DNA of 64,000 nt from Phycisphaeraceae bacterium (GTDB taxonomy: Bacteria > Planctomycetota > Phycisphaerae > Phycisphaerales > UBA1924). The notes under the pieces are model-generated. The model made no database searches. It was not told the DNA's origin and saw nothing but the letters and a program-made list of their open reading frames with translations. How positions within the stretch are numbered: the stretch's first letter is position 1; the number at the start of each line of letters is the position of its first letter. This document shows positions 20,306 to 26,873 of the stretch, in pieces. Location: the NCBI GenBank assembly GCA_021297895.1, contig JAJTHN010000012.1, forward strand, positions 1 through 64,000, given 5' to 3'. The position numbers and the translations under genes were made by a program.

Positions 20306-22273
20306 TCAGACGACCTGCAGCAGCTTCATCGTCTCCTTGACGATGTCCTCGCTGGTGATGCTGCACATCTTGAGCACTTCCTCGGGGGTCTTGGCGCTCT
20401 TGGGGATGCGTCGCACGAACATCTGACGCAGGGTGAACGAGTCGCCGCTGGCCGTCAGCGCATCGGCAACGGCCGAGCCGATGCCGCCGCCGTAGTTGTC
20501 CTCGATGGTCACGATGTAGCCGCCGTTGGCGTTGGCGATGTCCAGCAGCTTGTCCTCATCGAACGGAAGCGAGTACAGGTCGACCAGGGTCGCGCTGACG
20601 CCCGCCTTGTCCAGCGCATCCAGGGCCTTGTTGGCCTCGTGCACCATGTAGCCGCTGGCGCACAGCAGAACATCGCGGCCCTCGCTGAGAACCTCGAAGC
20701 CGCCGAGGTTGAAGGCCGTCTGGTCGCTGTAGATGAACTCGGTGTCGGCACGCAGCGTGCGCATGTAGCACACGCCCTCGTACTCGGCCATCGCGTGCGT
20801 CAGGGCGTACGCGGCATAGGCGTCGCTGGGCTGGAGGACGTAGCAGCCGGGGTTGCCGCGGTGGTCGCGCATCGTGCTGAAGGCGCGGAACCAGGCGATG
20901 TCCGGCAGGCTCATCTGGCTCGGGCCATCGGCCGCGAGGGTGATGCCCGCGTGGCTTCCGACGATCTTGAGGTTGGCCCCGCTGTTGATGGCCATTTCGA
21001 TCTGGTCGTAACCGCGTGTGACGAACTTGGCGAAGGTCGAACAGAAGGGGATCTTCCCCGCGGCGGAGAGACCGGCCGCGACCGAGTACATGTTCTGCTC
21101 GGCGATCTTGCACTCGACAAAGCGGCTCTCGAGGGTCTTGTCCTTCTTGAACATGTCGGCGAACGTCGAGTTGGAGACGTCCGCATCCAGCGCCACCACG
21201 CGCTCATTGGCCTGGCCCAGGGCCCGCAGCGCGATGCCGTAGGCGCGGCGGGTGGCCATCTTGCCCGACTGGATCGCGCTGACAAGGTCGAACTTCTTGG
21301 CGATCTCGCCGAGGGTCACAAAGTCGTTGTTGCGCAGCTCGCGGTTGGCGGCCTGCGCCGGGGGCTGGATCTCGAACCCGTCGCTGGAGACCAGCGAGCT
21401 GGTCAGCTCCACGCGACGCTCATCCAGCTCGGCCATCGCCTTCTGCATCACGTCGCCGGTCGCCGGCTTGCCGTGCCAGCCCGCGCCGCTCATGACCGTC
21501 GTGCCCCAGCCCTTGACCGTCCGGGCCACGATGGCCATCGGCTGTCCGGGGGTGCCGCTGATCTTGGCGAACTCATCCATCGCGGTCTTGATCTGCGCGG
21601 GGGCGTGACCGTCGATCTCCATCACGTTGAAGCCCAGCGCCTCGAGCTTGGCGCGGGTCACGGCGGCGGACTGCTGCTTGCTGACGCGGTCGGCCTGGCC
21701 GTAGTCGTTGCAGTTGAAGATCGCCAGCACGTTGCTGAGGCGATGGTCCATGATGAAGTCCAGCGCCTCGGCGATCTGGCCCTCGCGGCTCTCACCATCG
21801 CCGATCACGCAGTAAATCCGGCGATCGATCCCGTCCTGGCGGGCGGCGATGCCGAGTCCCGCGGCCACCGAGAGGCCCTGGCCCAGCGAGCCGGTCGCCG
21901 CGTCGAAGAAGGGGAAGCCTTCCATGGGGTTCGGGTGGCCATCGACCTCGCTGGCGGCCTCGCGCAGCTTCATCGCATCGGCAACGGTCATCGGCCTGCG
22001 GCTGGACGGATCCTTGCCGATCATGACGCCGAGCTTCGCGCACGCGGCGTAGACGATCGGGACCGCATGTCCCTCGCTGAGGACCAGACGATCGCTGGTG
22101 GGGTAGTCGGGGTACTCGGGGCTCCAGCGCATCGAGTTGAACATCAACACCGTGATGATGTGACCGAGCGACATGGCCGTCGACGGGTGTCCGGATCCGG
22201 CCGCGGCGCACATCTCCAGGGACAGACGGTCCAGTTCGATGGCTTGGGCATGGACGGCGGCTTCGAATGACAT
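20306..22273 (-). CDS. tkt: Transketolase
   Basis: A 655-residue thiamine-diphosphate enzyme of the pentose phosphate pathway, carrying full N-terminal, central and C-terminal domains. Seen: GSGHPSTAMSLGHI, SEGHAVPIVYA, the ThDP motif starting GDGESREGQIAEALDF and ending at FNCNDYGQAD, the central-domain ThDP glutamate region ECKIAEQNMYSVAAGLS, and GITLAADGPSQM with SLPDIAWFRAF. The sequence resembles the archaeal/planctomycete-type transketolase more than the E. coli one. Start at 22273 is supported by AAGGA eight bases upstream. A long same-frame extension through the repeat region (to 23215) is rejected. It is divergent from dnaN across a 1.4-kb repeat-rich gap. Confidence 0.92.
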   Translation of the reverse strand: MSFEAAVHAQAIELDRLSLEMCAAAGSGHPSTAMSLGHIITVLMFNSMRWSPEYPDYPTSDRLVLSEGHAVPIVYAACAKLGVMIGKDPSSRRPMTVADAMKLREAASEVDGHPNPMEGFPFFDAATGSLGQGLSVAAGLGIAARQDGIDRRIYCVIGDGESREGQIAEALDFIMDHRLSNVLAIFNCNDYGQADRVSKQQSAAVTRAKLEALGFNVMEIDGHAPAQIKTAMDEFAKISGTPGQPMAIVARTVKGWGTTVMSGAGWHGKPATGDVMQKAMAELDERRVELTSSLVSSDGFEIQPPAQAANRELRNNDFVTLGEIAKKFDLVSAIQSGKMATRRAYGIALRALGQANERVVALDADVSNSTFADMFKKDKTLESRFVECKIAEQNMYSVAAGLSAAGKIPFCSTFAKFVTRGYDQIEMAINSGANLKIVGSHAGITLAADGPSQMSLPDIAWFRAFSTMRDHRGNPGCYVLQPSDAYAAYALTHAMAEYEGVCYMRTLRADTEFIYSDQTAFNLGGFEVLSEGRDVLLCASGYMVHEANKALDALDKAGVSATLVDLYSLPFDEDKLLDIANANGGYIVTIEDNYGGGIGSAVADALTASGDSFTLRQMFVRRIPKSAKTPEEVLKMCSITSEDIVKETMKLLQVV

Positions 22274-22281
22274 GGGTGTGA

Positions 22282-22286
22282 TCCTT
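22282..22286 (-). promoter_or_regulatory. Shine-Dalgarno site of tkt
   Basis: AAGGA on the minus strand, 8 nt before ATG 22273. It decides the start against a much longer open frame that runs into the 21-bp repeats. Confidence 0.7.
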
Positions 22287-22514
22287 TCGCGTGCGGAACA
22301 GTGGCCCGGCACCGGGGCGGGCCCGATGCGGGTGGGTGCAGACCGAGCCCGGCAGACGGGCCCAATCATGCGTATCGGCGCATGGCACGTCCTTTGCCGA
22401 GAAAATCTCGTCCATGGAGTATCAGCGCCCCCGCCCCCAAGGTCCAGTCCGCGCCGAAAAACCGATGGTCCGCCGTTGCGCCGCCGAGATGCCCTCCGGA
22501 GGGAAGAAGTGGAT

Positions 22515-22670
22515 GCACGAAGGCGCGAAGACGCGAAGAAGAGGGGGAAGAAGGGGGAGAAGAGAGGGGAAGAGGGGGAGGGGAGCGGGGAAGAAGAAGA
22601 GGGGGGAGGGGGAGATGGGGTGCGGGAAAGAGGAGAAGGGGTGGGGAGAGGGGGAGACCGGGTCTGGACG
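22515..22670 (+). repeat. Purine-rich intergenic repeat element, copy 1
   Basis: About 155 bp, almost purely G and A on the plus strand, opening with GCACGAAGGCGCGAAGACGC and then long GGGGGAAGAAG-type runs. The same opening followed by a purine run occurs in inverted orientation at 23404-23580: about 24 of the first 25 bases match, then gapped similarity. A transcript would be nearly pure purine and the duplex could adopt triplex structure. It lies 240 bp upstream of tkt. No gene is credible here. Confidence 0.75.
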
Positions 22671-22887
22671 CCGGATCTGAGGCTTTGCGAAGATCCGGAT
22701 CGGGGGGCGACGATCGGGGATAGGGGTGCGGGGATCGGGGATGAGATTGCCGAGATCCTCAGCTCATGGCCTCCGTCGCCGCCGAAACGCCTTCCGTGAA
22801 TAAGCTGTCGGTTGCCCATCGGCCACCGCCCGCCCATGCCCGCTCGGAGCGCGCTGAGGTGCCCAATCAGGGTGATCCCCACCCCTC

Positions 22888-23265
22888 GGGAGGGATTCCT
22901 GATCGCACGGGCGGTGCGCGGCCGCGCATGGGAGGAGCTTTCGATCGAACGGGAGGAGCTCAAGTTCGATCGGGAGGAGCTCAAGTTCGATCGGAAGGAG
23001 CTCAAGTTCGAACGGGAGGAGCTCAAGATCGAACGGAAGGAGCTCACGATCGAACGGAAGGAGCTCAAGTTCGAACGGAAGGAGCTCAAGTTCGACCGGG
23101 AGGAGCTCACGATCGAACGGAAGGACCTCAAGTTCGATCGGGAGGCCCTCAAGATCGATCGGGAGGAGCTTTCGATGCATCGGGAGGAGCATTCGTGAGC
23201 ACGGGCGGGGCTCACGTGCGCTGATCAGGGGCTCACGAGCGAGCGGGAGGAGCCCGCGTGCGACC
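22888..23265 (+). repeat. 21-bp tandem array A (about 18 units)
   Basis: A head-to-tail array with an exact 21-bp period. The best-conserved units are the twelve from 22930 to 23181; they start GGRAGGAGCTC and end WTCGAWC. Units 22951-22971 and 22972-22992 are identical. Degenerate units keep the phase on both sides (22888-22929 and 23182-23265, with traces to about 23349). Each unit holds two palindromes, GAGCTC and TTCGAA/ATCGAT. Because 21 is divisible by 3, several frames stay open and read as heptapeptides (for example EELKFDR), but no ribosome-binding site or domain supports translation. Confidence 0.92.
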
Positions 23266-23403
23266 GAATGGGGCCTGCCTTGCGTCTTTCGCCTCAGGAT
23301 CGTGATCGATCGGTCCGCTTTCGGCCATGATCGCCGCGCGTTCGATCACAATCGACCCTCGCGACCACCCATGGCCCCCCGCGCCGGCCTTTTTCCGCCC
23401 ACC

Positions 23404-23580
23404 CCAGCCCCCATCGCGCACCCCTCTTCCCCTCTCCCCCTCCCCGCTCTTCTCTTCCCCCTCCTCTGTCTTCCCTTCCCCCTCCCCTGTCTACTCCTCC
23501 CCCTTCCCTCTTCTCTCCTCCCCTTTCCCTCTTCTCTTCTCCCCCTTCCCCCTCCTCTTCGCGTCTTCGCGTCTTCGTGC
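23404..23580 (-). repeat. Purine-rich intergenic repeat element, copy 2 (inverted)
   Basis: About 175 bp of almost pure pyrimidine on the plus strand, ending in TCTTCGCGTCTTCGTGC. On the minus strand this is an inverted copy of the element at 22515-22670. The two copies flank tandem array A and point toward it. It ends 112 bp before the dnaN start codon, so it may form part of the dnaN 5' region. Confidence 0.75.
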
Positions 23581-23691
23581 AAATCCCCTCTTCGAGCGGC
23601 CAGCGTGGCCCGGTGATCGCGCGGTTGCGGGCGGGGGGTGGGCGGGAGCGGTCGCGGGTGATTACACTGTTGTTCAACATCTGGAGTCCGC

Positions 23692-24942
23692 ATGAAGATT
23701 ATCGCTGATCGCGCTGCGCTCATGGAGGCGGCGAACCTTGTTGCCGCCGTTGTCCCCGCCCGTTCTCCCTCGCCGGCGCTCTCCTGCCTCAAGCTCACCG
23801 CCGAGAAGCACGGCGGCGTCGGCACATTGACCGTGGCCGGCACCGATGCCGAGGCCTCGCTGGAAATGACGCTCACGCAGGTCGATGTCAGCCAGCCGGG
23901 CGTCGCGGTTGTCAGCGCCGAGAAGCTCAAGCAGATCCTCGGGGCCGTGGCCGAGGGCGCGCCGACCATCACGATGGAACTCGACGGCGACCAGTGCAAG
24001 ATCACCGGCAGCCACGCCAAGTTCCGCATCTTCGCATTCCCCGCGGGCGACTACCCGCCCTTCCCCGACTTCGCCGCGGCCATCGGCAGCGCGACCGGAC
24101 CGGGCGCAGCGCGCAGCACGTTCATCCACAGCGCCGGCGGGTTGCTGGCGCTGGTCACGCGGACCGTCTTCGCCACCGCGCGGGAGACCAGCCGCTACGC
24201 GATCAACGGCGTGCTGCTCAAGCGTGACGGCCGCAAGATCGAAATGGTCGCCACCGATGGCCGCCGTCTGGCCCTTTCGCGCTCCACGCTCAAGCCGCAG
24301 CCCGCGGGCGGCGGCGCGGGCGGCTCGGGGGGCGAGAGCACGCCGGTCTCGTGCATCATCCCGACGCGCGCGCTGAACCTGCTGACCCGCCTTGCGGGCG
24401 ATCCGGAGGCGAGCGTGCGGATCGCCGTCACCGACAACCGCGTGTTCTTCGCGTTTTACGATGTCGAGCTCAAGGGCAAGGAGGGCAAGGACGCATCGGG
24501 CGGCGGCCAGAGCCCGCGCGCGATCCTCAGCAGCACGCTGGTCGAGGGGACCTTCCCGCCGTACGAGGATGTCATCCCCAAGGATCACGACAAGAAGGCG
24601 ACAACGGGCCGCGATGAGCTCAGCAGCGCCGTGCGTCAGGCCAGCGTGCTGACCAACGAGGAAAGCCGCGGCATCCGCATGACCTTCAGCGGGAAGAACA
24701 AGAGCGTCCGCCTCAGCAGCCGCGCACCGGAGCTGGGCGATTCGGAAATCGACCTCGGGCTGACGGCCTATGAGGGCGAGGACCTGACGATTTCGTTCAA
24801 CCCGGCCTTCATCGCCGATGCGCTCCGCGCGGTTCCGGAGCCCGAGGTCATGTGGGAGTTCAAGGCCTCCAACAAGCCCGGCGTGATGAAGGTCGGTGCG
24901 GAGTTTCTGTACGTGATCATGCCCGTGAACCTGCCGGAGTAA
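23692..24942 (+). CDS. dnaN: DNA polymerase III subunit beta (sliding clamp)
   Basis: A 416-residue beta clamp, longer than the usual 365-380. It begins MKIIADRAALMEAANLVAAVVPARSP with the standard N-terminal helix, contains EKLKQILGAVAEG, FVTRTVFATA-like LVTRTVFATARETSRYAINGV and the C-terminal NPAFIADALRAV and FLYVIMPVNL. Two Gly-rich insertions (near AGGGAGGSGGES and KEGKDASGGGQ) account for the extra length and probably lie in inter-domain or surface loops. GGAG five bases upstream supports the ATG. dnaA, recF and gyrB are not next to it, and I find no DnaA boxes in the upstream gap, so an origin here is not supported. Confidence 0.95.
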   Translation: MKIIADRAALMEAANLVAAVVPARSPSPALSCLKLTAEKHGGVGTLTVAGTDAEASLEMTLTQVDVSQPGVAVVSAEKLKQILGAVAEGAPTITMELDGDQCKITGSHAKFRIFAFPAGDYPPFPDFAAAIGSATGPGAARSTFIHSAGGLLALVTRTVFATARETSRYAINGVLLKRDGRKIEMVATDGRRLALSRSTLKPQPAGGGAGGSGGESTPVSCIIPTRALNLLTRLAGDPEASVRIAVTDNRVFFAFYDVELKGKEGKDASGGGQSPRAILSSTLVEGTFPPYEDVIPKDHDKKATTGRDELSSAVRQASVLTNEESRGIRMTFSGKNKSVRLSSRAPELGDSEIDLGLTAYEGEDLTISFNPAFIADALRAVPEPEVMWEFKASNKPGVMKVGAEFLYVIMPVNLPE

Positions 24943-24981
24943 GAGGGCGGGAGCGAGGGCGCGATCGGCGGGAGTGCGCCT

Positions 24982-25086
24982 GGGCACGGGTGCGCCGGGG
25001 GTGGTGGTGCGCGTGATCGGCGTGGCGGTGCGCGCGATGAGTGTGATGGCTTGCGCGATGAGCGTGGCGGTGCGCTGCACGCTTGG
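24982..25086 (+). repeat. 21-bp tandem array B (about 5 units)
   Basis: Degenerate head-to-tail units at 24982, 25003, 25024, 25045 and 25066, each exactly 21 bp. The clearest begin GGYGGTGCGC and end GATGAGYGT. The sequence is unrelated to arrays A, C and D. It begins 40 bp after the dnaN stop and has no gene. Confidence 0.75.
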
Positions 25087-25172
25087 ACCCATGGGCGTTT
25101 GTCCTGAGGTACCGCGCGGCCGGCGCGGGGTGGCCCCCGATGGGGGCGATCGGCCCGGCGAACTTCAAGAAG

Positions 25173-25277
25173 TCTTGATGCGGTGGGGGGTGGCGTTGAT
25201 CTTGCTGCGGCTGGGCTTGATATCGCTGCGACTGGCCCTGATGTCGCTTCGACGGTCCTCGATATCGCTTCGCGGGG
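25173..25277 (+). repeat. 21-bp tandem array C (4-5 units)
   Basis: Units start at 25173, 25194, 25215, 25236 and 25257 with a period of 21 bp. The core of each is TTGATATCGCT(G/T)CG or a near variant; the first unit is degenerate. It lies in the gap between dnaN and the SnoaL-like gene, 140 bp before that gene's start, and could belong to its promoter region. Confidence 0.75.
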
Positions 25278-25417
25278 GCACGCCCGCCCGGCCAGAGCCC
25301 TCGCCGATCATCCCCCTCTGGTTTTCCACGCCGTGGGCCGAGACACGGCTCGCGGGTTCTGGTACGCTTGCGCCACCGCCGGGATGGACCCCGGCACGCG
25401 ACCACTCAAGGTGAAGC

Positions 25418-25957
25418 ATGGCCAAGAAGAAGACCACATCCCCCGCGAAGAAGACCGGCACAAAGGCCAAGGCGAGCAAGAAGCCCGCCCCCGCAAAGAA
25501 GCCCGCGGCCAAGTCCAAACCCGCCGCCAAGAAGCCCGCCGCCGCCAAGCCGTCGGGCAAGCCCGCCCCCGCCGCGGGCGTGTCGCAGATCTCCACCGGC
25601 GGCGGCGCCAGCCCCGGAGAAATCGGCCGCAACCTCGTGGCGATGTTCAACGGCGGCAAGGGCGAAGAGGTCGAGAAGAAGTACTGGGCCCCGACGATCA
25701 CATCGATCGAGGGCATGGGCATGGCCTGGCACGGCCTCAAGGCCGTCCGCGAGAAGAACACACAGTGGGGAGCGCAGAACGAAGTGCTCGGCGGTTCGGC
25801 CGAAGGGCCGTACGTCGGCGCGACAGGTTTCGCCGTCAAGTTCCGCATCCACATCCGCGAACGCAGCACCGGCAAAGAGGACCTGATGGAAGAAGTGGGC
25901 GTCTACACCGTCCGCGACGGCAAGATCGTGACCGAAGAGTTCATGTACCTGGCCTGA
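25418..25957 (+). CDS. SnoaL-like (NTF2-fold) protein with histone-H1-like Lys/Ala/Pro tail
   Basis: A 179-residue two-part protein. Residues 1-55 are almost only Lys, Ala and Pro with KKPAPAKKPAAK-type repeats, like histone H1 C-terminal tails or bacterial HC1-like proteins, and should be disordered and bind nucleic acid. Residues about 65-179 look like a SnoaL-like/NTF2 domain (NLVAMFNGGKGEEVEKKYW, VYTVRDGKIVTEEFMYL), a fold used for cyclases, isomerases and stress-related proteins. The combination is uncommon. Tandem array C lies upstream and array D downstream. Function unknown; DNA or RNA association is an inference from the tail. A strong terminator follows. Confidence 0.8.
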   Translation: MAKKKTTSPAKKTGTKAKASKKPAPAKKPAAKSKPAAKKPAAAKPSGKPAPAAGVSQISTGGGASPGEIGRNLVAMFNGGKGEEVEKKYWAPTITSIEGMGMAWHGLKAVREKNTQWGAQNEVLGGSAEGPYVGATGFAVKFRIHIRERSTGKEDLMEEVGVYTVRDGKIVTEEFMYLA

Positions 25958-25996
25958 GCGACGCGTTCGCGGCCGTCATCGAGCGTTCAGACCACG

Positions 25997-26026
25997 GGCG
26001 GCGGGCCAGAGGCTCGCCGCCTTTTT
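25997..26026 (+). terminator. Intrinsic terminator
   Basis: An 11-bp GC-rich stem with one G-U pair (25997-26007 with 26011-26021), three-base loop, then T5. It is 39 bp after the SnoaL-like gene. Confidence 0.88.
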
Positions 26027-26078
26027 CATGGTCCCGTGACAGCCCCCGGCGGCGAACGCGGCGGGCCCGCCGAGCGCA

Positions 26079-26141
26079 CGCGGCGAGCTGCAGTACGCCC
26101 GCGGCGAGCTGCAGTACGCCCGCGGCGGGGGGCGATGCTCA
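26079..26141 (+). repeat. 21-bp tandem array D (two perfect units plus degenerate flanks)
   Basis: Two identical 21-bp units (26079-26099 and 26100-26120) beginning CGCGGCGAGCTG, followed by a partial third unit at 26121 that touches the end of the convergent lptB gene (stop at 26139). A degenerate relative precedes them at about 26057. Each unit contains overlapping AGCT and CTGCAG palindromes. Confidence 0.85.
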
Positions 26142-26873
26142 CTCGAACTCATCGCCGCGAAAGAGCGAGCCCAGGTACACGCGCCGGACCATCTCATCGT
26201 TGATCAGTTCCTTGGGCGTGCCCATCGCGAAGCGCTTGCCCTCATCGATGATGTACGCCCGGTCGCACACGCGCAGCGTCTGCTGGACGTTGTGATCCGT
26301 GATCAGGCACGCGATGCCCGTCTCACGCAGCCTGCGGATCTCGGCCTGCAGCTCCTCGACCGCGATCGGGTCCACGCCGCTGAAGGGCTCATCCAGGAGG
26401 ATGATCTTCGGGCTGGTCACCAGCGCCCGCGCGATCTCGAGCTTCCGCCGCTCGCCGCCGGAACACGTCCGCGCCGGGTGCCGGGCCTTGTGCGTGAGCC
26501 CGAACTGCGCAAGCAGCGCCGCGGCCTTGCTCAGCCGCTCCTGCCGCGTCGTGGGCATCGTCTCGAGAATCGCCAGCAGGTTCTGCTCGCACGTCAGCCG
26601 CTGGAAGACGCTCGGCTCCTGCGACAGGTAGCCCATGCCCAGCCTCGCGCGCTGGTACATCGCCAGGCCCGTCACATCCGCGCCGTTGAGCAGAACCTTT
26701 CCCGCATCGGCCTCGATCATCCCGACGACCATGCGGAAGCTCGTCGTCTTGCCCGCGCCGTTGCGCCCCAGCAGCCCGACGATCTCCGACGGCTCAACGT
26801 GAAAACTCACGTCCTGCACCACGCGCCGGCCCGCGAACGTCTTCGACAAGTTGAGCGCCTGCAGCAGACTCAC
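26139..26873 (-). CDS. lptB: LPS export ABC transporter ATP-binding protein
   Basis: A 244-residue ATPase of the LptB type, which powers LPS extraction with LptFG. Seen: Walker A GRNGAGKTT, Q-loop YLSQEPSVFQRLT (the SVF element is typical of LptB), signature CSGGERRKLEIARAL (usually LSGGE), Walker B IILLDEPFSGVDPIAV and the switch TDHNV. The start codon is GTG at 26873, the only fitting one, with only a distant AGGA. lptA, lptC, lptF and lptG are not adjacent. It is followed on the same strand after 45 bp from fahA, so the two may be co-transcribed. A general branched-chain amino-acid ATPase is the less likely alternative. Confidence 0.88.
   Translation of the reverse strand: MSLLQALNLSKTFAGRRVVQDVSFHVEPSEIVGLLGRNGAGKTTSFRMVVGMIEADAGKVLLNGADVTGLAMYQRARLGMGYLSQEPSVFQRLTCEQNLLAILETMPTTRQERLSKAAALLAQFGLTHKARHPARTCSGGERRKLEIARALVTSPKIILLDEPFSGVDPIAVEELQAEIRRLRETGIACLITDHNVQQTLRVCDRAYIIDEGKRFAMGTPKELINDEMVRRVYLGSLFRGDEFE

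Follow-up and report, generated by a model that had tools for sequence, protein, structure and literature searches.

Around its dnaN gene, a 64,000-nucleotide stretch of a Phycisphaeraceae bacterium (contig JAJTHN010000012.1, positions 1 to 64,000; hereafter the window) carries four tandem arrays, A to D, which all step by 21 bp but differ in unit sequence. Why should unlike sequences share one length? A previous sequence-only reading had answered that no single amplified element lies behind the arrays and that something acts on the length itself. We examined the arrays in the window, which is part of a 3.48-Mb draft genome (84 contigs, 97% complete), and compared them with arrays elsewhere in this genome and in other genomes. 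We give an even chance to the reading that array A belongs to a class of intergenic, DNA-level repeats resembling repetitive extragenic palindromic (REP) elements, 'tagged-palindrome minisatellites' that found, expand and disperse arrays, and that the class occurs in this Phycisphaerales family. Below, G000 is this genome and C its contigs, other G labels are other genomes, and L labels are loci or stretches.

A GGAGC tag followed by a 16-bp palindrome

The whole genome was searched for three GGAGS at 16-base spacing, a search that selects for the tag but not for palindromes. The layout of array A, GGAGC and then a 16-bp palindrome, was found in 15 array stretches at 14 loci (A and its tail counted as two; 133 units, 105 distinct). 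The palindrome sequence differs between arrays, examples being ACCTTCGCGCGAAGGT, TCGTCACGCGTGACGA, TTCAAAGGCCTTTGAA and the near-palindrome TCGTTTGCTCAAACGA. Chains, in which at least 4/5 tag matches were needed and units of one array are not independent, came from 14 of 17 loci scanned; the three without any were L161, L018 and L019, while L151 (C52) was omitted. Eleven of the 15 stretches contain 8–13 head-to-tail units and the remaining ones 3–6. Because the unit of array A is GGAGC plus a 16-bp palindrome, its 21 is 5 + 16. The claim that no single element is behind the arrays is therefore unsupported as it was put, since A is one of a class that spans the genome and has relatives in other genera.

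The centre of the 16-mer is the best dyad axis in 14/15 stretches (column shuffles, P < 0.05 in 13/15), and 567 of 840 dyad cells pair (67.5%), against a mean of 26.0% and a maximum of 29.6% in 200 shuffles. Array consensuses pair at 87/120 positions, whereas 20,000 half-swaps gave a mean of 43 and a maximum of 68; when three redundant stretches (L155, L153 and the A tail) are removed, 73/96 falls to 33 upon swapping. Array A itself is a weaker case, with 4.7/8 pairs, an axis P of 0.03 and no covariation of its halves inside the array (P 0.80).

Within arrays overall, the halves covary slightly (727 vs 705 pairs, P 0.0016, mainly from two arrays), and the mutations that change symmetry comprise 143 broken and 11 compensated pairs. 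Symmetry is therefore mostly a property of the founder unit that subsequently decays. This fits arrays that are founded, amplified and then decay better than it fits strong selection acting on every unit today. Units at array ends show more degeneration (3.8 vs 2.1 differences), and some of them may be chain overshoot. Similar palindromes recur at separate places, namely on C49/C79/C80, C62/C71 and C22/C32.

The step is nearly free of indels. In array regions of this genome, which were picked by 21-bp chains, exact GGAGC tags follow each other at 21 (77 times), 42 (13), 63 (3) and 207 bp (once), so that 93/94 spacings are multiples of 21, against 361 substitutions in 2793 bases. The tag was substituted at 0.039 per column and the rest at 0.157, a contrast biased by the 4/5 tag requirement.

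Arrays of period 42 in L018 and L019 contain GGAGC-ATTTTTGATCAAAAAT-GCTCC-like palindromes. Arrays that step by 42 bp and consist of near-perfect palindromes (ATTTTTGATCAAAAAT; TTCTGCATCGATGCAGAA) lie at contig ends (L018:16-130, L019:2806-3025, L016:1-105), and probably cause assembly breaks there.

Period 21 in this genome and in relatives

Periods were surveyed in 41 stretches (the window and 40 others; 720 kb, of which 94 kb called intergenic). The stretches mostly begin at contig starts, where several arrays sit, so array density may be overstated; genes were called with a home-made hexamer model, which called arrays A and L003 coding. Among 53 intergenic arrays reported by Tandem Repeats Finder (TRF), 21 is the leading period with 13 arrays, further multiples being 42 (4), 63 (2) and 126 (1), while period 20 has one array and period 22 has two. 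An intergenic lag scan likewise found 17 regions at lag 21, as opposed to 3 at lag 20 and 2 at lag 22; ten Markov nulls averaged 0.1 regions. The next peaks are at 42 (14 regions) and 8 (13 regions). Arrays lacking GGAG (n = 37) also peak at 21, with 7 arrays plus 2 at 42 and 3 each at the next-highest periods, but 4 of these 7 sit in L003 or the window. Of 97 coding arrays, 24 have period 21, partly since arrays were called as genes. Thus, over-representation of period 21 with unlike units, which the sequence-only reading had set as a test, is borne out in the sampled part of the genome: A to D are not the only arrays, and 21 is commoner than 20 and 22.

The largest intergenic lag peak that is not a multiple of 21 is lag 8. 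It accompanies another group of arrays, whose units are 8 bp long: GAGTGGGG (L013:3304-3341), TGCCACTG (L018:395-441), CTGTGCCA (L191:1355-1452) and GCCACTCT (L228:1-79).

GGAGC triplets in this genome number 57 at period 21 vs 3 for the backwards pattern, 1 vs 1 at period 24 and 0 vs 0 at period 22. The family set of 163 genomes includes this one but no second genome of its genus. Summed by hand over the set, with overlapping hits counted repeatedly, GGAGC triplets number 290 at period 21, 67 at 24 and 1 at 22, and backwards controls ~577, 485 and 2, multiples of three dominating because of coding repeats. GGAGC hits are 4.3 times as frequent at 21 as at 24, and control hits 1.2 times; with this genome excluded, the ratios are 3.5 and 1.2. 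A period-21 match is present in 58/163 family genomes, coding repeats included.

TRF was run on sampled stretches of relatives, many chosen around hits in G030, G019 and G014. Arrays of period 21, 42 or 63 lie outside called genes in G120, G030, G019 and G014. The samples of G036, G066, G082, G050, G099 and G061 gave none called intergenic, although G061 has one by locus. Units laid out like those of A are also found in G014 and G061, and other genera have 21-bp arrays in intergenic DNA that contain GGAGC or a near variant; the matches there include coding repeats as well, L065 being one example recognised by eye. Of the family loci L120-L149, many lacked a significant dyad. At the dnaN loci of 19 named relatives, TRF found six intergenic arrays and none at period 21. 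In a class-wide search of 248 genomes, none outside the family approaches the count of this genome, the largest being 23 in G331, mostly a simple GGAGCAG repeat.

The arrays around dnaN and the cassette of array A

In the window, lag-21 identity was compared with 2000 dinucleotide shuffles. No shuffle equalled, at any lag tried, the identity of the A core (0.87; 22930-23170), the right tail of A (0.59; 23171-23265), C (0.69) or D (0.70; 26060-26141), and B reached 0.58 with P(any lag) of 0.001. The 21-bp repetition of A to D that had been described is thus real beyond chance, except that the former left edge of A (22888-22929) is not significant at lag 21 (P(any lag) 0.38). TRF places A at 22930-23170, C at 25191-25269 and D at 26075-26127 (2.5 copies), and has no row for B. 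Three further period-21 arrays flanking A had been missed. B, C and D lie outside called genes, while A overlaps a called 109-codon open reading frame (22872-23198), which we judge spurious. The features are as follows.

22515..23580, no strand: inserted cassette of 1066 bp holding array A, with inverted GCACGAAG-type ends at 22515(+) and 23580(-), evident also from the gap vs relatives
22515..22538, + strand: cassette left end GCACGAAGGCGCGAAGACGCGAAG, from the end-motif search
22540..22657, + strand: polypurine array, period 21 with indels (TRF 5.5 copies, 72% match, 6% indels; lag-21 identity 0.72)
22697..22742, + strand: short 21-bp array of ~2.2 copies (TRF, lag-21 test)
22930..23170, + strand: array A core, GGAGC plus TCAAGTTCGAACGGGA-type 16-mer (TRF, unit layout; dyad axis P 0.03)
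23165..23290, + strand: degenerate tail of array A, GGAGC/GGGGC units of the same layout (lag 21 significant to 23265; dyad axis not significant, P 0.08)
23422..23560, - strand: polypyrimidine array, period 21 with indels, inverted relative to the polypurine array (TRF)
23557..23580, - strand: cassette right inverted end (end-motif search)
23692..24942, + strand: dnaN, flanking gene (open reading frame; name taken over from the sequence-only reading)
24982..25086, + strand: array B, degenerate 21-bp repeat without GGAGC and with no significant dyad (lag-21 test)
25173..25277, + strand: array C, TGGCCTTGATATCGCTGCGAC, 3.8 copies, no significant dyad (TRF, lag-21 test)
26075..26127, + strand: array D, 2.5 copies, no significant dyad, borderline similarity to A (TRF, lag-21 test)

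The units of B and C match that of A at 9/21 and 10/21 positions, no better than shuffles, and D is borderline (13/21, P 0.015); this test has low power, as L017, with the same tag-and-palindrome layout, fails it too. The description of the units as unrelated therefore stands for B and C as far as tested, but is uncertain for D. A single ancestral sequence for A to D is correspondingly unsupported for B and C and borderline for D.

The named relatives of the window dnaN are mostly Phycisphaerales/Planctomycetota metagenome bins, the closest at 65% identity. A transketolase-like gene (named from reading its sequence) and dnaN are divergent, with a gap of 173–365 bp in 9/12 relatives and 1418 bp here. 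In three of the nine (L032-L034), the called start lies upstream of an MSFEAA-like start, so that the actual gap could reach ~440 bp. In the three relatives outside the nine, the neighbour is another gene or none was called nearby. The inverted ends enclose 1066 bp, which account for the difference and for which the nine relatives have no room. The end motif occurs 15 times in this genome (0 for the backwards control) and in 6/163 family genomes. Nine of the 15 are near GGAGC arrays (on C22, C35, C49, C62 and C79) and six are not (C14, C81, C61, C32). With up to 2 mismatches allowed, 656 kb of sampled stretches contain the motif a single time, at L003, which is another array locus. Other cassettes have the same end type but different contents: on C22 a gene is combined with a GGAGC array, on C14 a GxxExxY nuclease gene is enclosed, and on C81 a GGAGC array is lacking. 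Since contents vary, the cassette is not identical with the array class. The nuclease gene, of the GxxExxY PD-(D/E)XK type, is at L229:1364-2153 (G000:C14), inside the cassette type that also carries array A.

Nine arrays have called genes on both flanks; the gene pair is divergent in five, co-directional in four and convergent in none. The orientation of GGAGC relative to the neighbouring gene is mixed. It agrees with the sign of local GC skew in 7/14 loci, and a strand bias following skew was rejected as an explanation on that count. Neighbours were read by eye, some by Pfam, and no replication-initiator gene, such as accompanies plasmid or phage iterons, was noticed, without a systematic search for one.

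A protein family with an MSV[IV]PxK motif near its start (L156:3660-4337, L152:356-1087, L150:626-1588 and L157:4111-4788) has 14 hits in this genome; one member scanned had no Pfam match and two had no NCBIfam match. A GGAGC array lies upstream of each of the closest four members, on C15, C62, C49 and C22, and the four arrays have different palindromes. At least two more members have other 21-bp arrays nearby (L187, L188). Palindromes therefore turn over quickly, or the arrays arise at these sites independently. Leucine-rich-repeat proteins adjoin two arrays (L156:4976-8029, with a protein-kinase domain, and L152:1798-3120), and 84-bp repeats occur in that DNA.

Known systems and competing explanations

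As far as the literature searched extends, which leaves out most subscription papers, no paper describes 21-bp arrays of GGAGC plus palindrome; the opinion that no described system matches holds to that extent, REPs being the closest kind. GTAG/CGTC REPs (PMC3733652) consist of a short palindrome with a short, oriented tag at one of its ends, and the tag is constant while stems diversify. They are mostly intergenic, patchy among species, often clustered and, in some Pseudomonas, reiterated in tandem. The arrays here differ in that the tag is GGAGC rather than GTAG/CGTC (14/15 consensuses of arrays found by GGAGC), the palindrome centre pairs too (11/15 and 12/15) with no unpaired loop, and no gene of a REP-associated tyrosine transposase (RAYT) stands beside them. 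REPs are expected as singletons or inverted dimers, whereas the units here are head-to-tail. Membership in RAYT-mobilised REPs was rejected, with two Y1_Tnp loci lacking GGAGC arrays and no Y1_Tnp in G120/G121.

One of these two RAYT-like Y1 domains lies in frame within an uninterrupted leucyl-tRNA synthetase frame (L117:1-2895; G000:C16:778-3672), at residues 501-555, scoring 25 bits in one scan and 20.8 bits, under the cut-off, in another; inverted GTAGGTCGGCAC hairpins are seen by eye on both sides. The second RAYT gene, L116 (G000:C71:142223-145567), has GTAG-CCACGGGT...ACCCGTGG REP-like hairpins around it, by eye.

Prokaryotic satellites, in the accessible text of PMC6749651, are likewise tandem, mostly short and very uneven among species, and some are non-coding and scattered through one genome. 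Dispersed long-repeat families are given there only for Leptospira interrogans and Methanocella conradii, and a fixed unit length with changing palindromes does not appear in that text. Borg tandem repeats, as far as the consulted part of PMC9879509 goes, also have an essentially unique unit per region, head-to-tail and both intergenic and genic. Borg units are perfect, A-enriched and 18, 20, 21 or 36 nt long, while units here are fixed in length, diverged and palindromic. The cassette of array A has the terminal inverted repeats of a miniature inverted-repeat transposable element in a segment for which relatives have no room, but no target-site duplication was noticed by eye in cassette flanks, no transposase is known for it, and its contents vary (array; array and gene; nuclease gene). 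The units resemble minisatellites in being head-to-tail, non-coding and within 10–60 bp. They are not clustered regularly interspaced short palindromic repeats (CRISPR) with unique spacers, since the 16-mers themselves repeat, successive ones at a mean identity of 46–93%. Tandem 21-bp units of a fixed GGAGC tag and an array-specific 16-bp palindrome are apparently an undescribed kind of bacterial repeat.

For tagged-palindrome minisatellites, we picture that a founder unit, the tag with a new palindrome, would be laid down, after which slippage or unequal exchange, aided by the ability of the unit to pair with itself, would add head-to-tail copies. Arrays would sometimes be copied to other loci or carried in the cassette, and then decay. 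The shared tag may be recognised by a nuclease, transposase or other single-strand enzyme; the nearest model for founder making would be a tag-recognising enzyme on self-paired DNA, like RAYT for GTAG REPs (PMC3733652). The 21-bp step would be tag plus palindrome, kept by whole-unit copying and possibly also by two helical turns that keep units on one face. Arrays at 21 bp without GGAGC (B, C, the purine/pyrimidine arrays) could be decayed or derived relatives, or reflect the same length constraint.

Several points weigh against this reading. No enzyme was identified for the arrays; both Y1_Tnp genes of this genome are flanked by GTAG-type hairpins and not by GGAGC arrays (~3-kb loci), and Y1_Tnp is lacking in G120, G121, G020, G082 and G023. 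GGAGC stands in 14/15 consensuses, but its constancy is partly built in, as the arrays were found by GGAGC. The central pairs are complementary as strongly as those outside the centre, which a hairpin loop would not need. Arrays on C49, C80 and C52 lie near contig starts and could be pieces of one array. The family-wide control exceeds GGAGC at period 21 (~577 vs 290), and an excess of GGAGC is clear only in some genomes (this one 57:3, G120 39:18, G030 10:3) but not in G019 (12:11) or G014 (1:16). Lastly, B, C and others step by 21 bp without detectable sequence in common with A, so tagged palindromes do not cover all of the 21-bp excess.

That residue keeps explanations by length alive. Since arrays with no detectable similarity to A also step by 21, a process or constraint on length itself, as was first proposed, may be at work, and two-turn helical phasing is a possible reason why the step is exactly 21. 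A lineage mechanism acting on two helical turns independently of sequence, repeatedly founding palindromic units behind the constant tag, is a tentative option clearly behind tagged palindromes; its agent might be an enzyme that produces palindromic tandem DNA, or a family of filament-forming proteins that selects two-turn spacing. Equally tentative is that each unit is a site for a dimeric DNA-binding protein, two turns placing dimers on one face to form a filament, wrap or loop, with paralogous proteins or shape readout accounting for the different palindromes. Phased sites agree with dyad symmetry through the centre, with the near absence of indels, with period 21 in arrays lacking GGAG and with the placing of arrays between divergent (5/9), co-directional (4/9) and convergent (0/9) genes. 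They fit less well with palindromes that are unlike even where the genes downstream are close paralogues (C15 and C62; 87% protein identity), with symmetry eroding within arrays and with the asymmetry of GGAGC itself; no binding protein is known, and none was searched for. We regard as rather unlikely an amplification that duplicates ~21 bp of any sequence, GGAGC palindromes being its best amplified class. The peak at 21 among the 37 arrays without GGAG points that way, as do polypurine, AT-rich (L188) and B/C units, the polypurine arrays in L184 and L185 having 0% indels at period 21 by TRF. The numbers are small, however, the L003 and window sequences that supply 4/7 also hold GGAGC arrays, decayed units may be homologous, and the polypurine and polypyrimidine arrays of the window contain 6–8% indels.

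Two readings at the RNA or protein level were tried. A transcribed hairpin array with single-stranded GGA linkers, for example a CsrA sponge, would suit the two CsrA genes of this genome and the GGA between palindromes in one orientation. G.T mismatches (48) are not above A.C (56), centres pair like stems and orientation to genes is mixed, which argues for the DNA rather than the RNA level, on duplex DNA as phased sites would have it. The window region 22000-26500 had no Rfam match, and among seven array loci only tRNA was above the gathering score, with weak microRNA-family matches far below it in two arrays. The hairpin reading, disfavoured by the wobble, loop and orientation tests, is thus highly improbable. 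A heptapeptide, coiled-coil coding repeat is less credible still. Array A does have an open frame with an EELKFDR-like heptad and there is one weak NCBIfam hit, a flagellar assembly protein (17.4 bits vs a cut-off of 192). Variable columns fall on codon positions 1 (3), 2 (1) and 3 (3), and in most arrays several frames are open at once, by which the suggestion that 21 bp is seven codons was rejected; the peptides, read by eye, are not conserved between arrays, and there is no Pfam match.

In these arrays the tag stays constant and the palindrome keeps changing at a step almost free of indels, which separates symmetry from sequence more cleanly than in the known repeats compared. The arrays offer a testable system for the birth of tandem arrays and for why some unit lengths win, and for whether two-turn phasing or a single-strand enzyme sets the step. 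As several arrays sit at contig ends, they probably also break the assembly.

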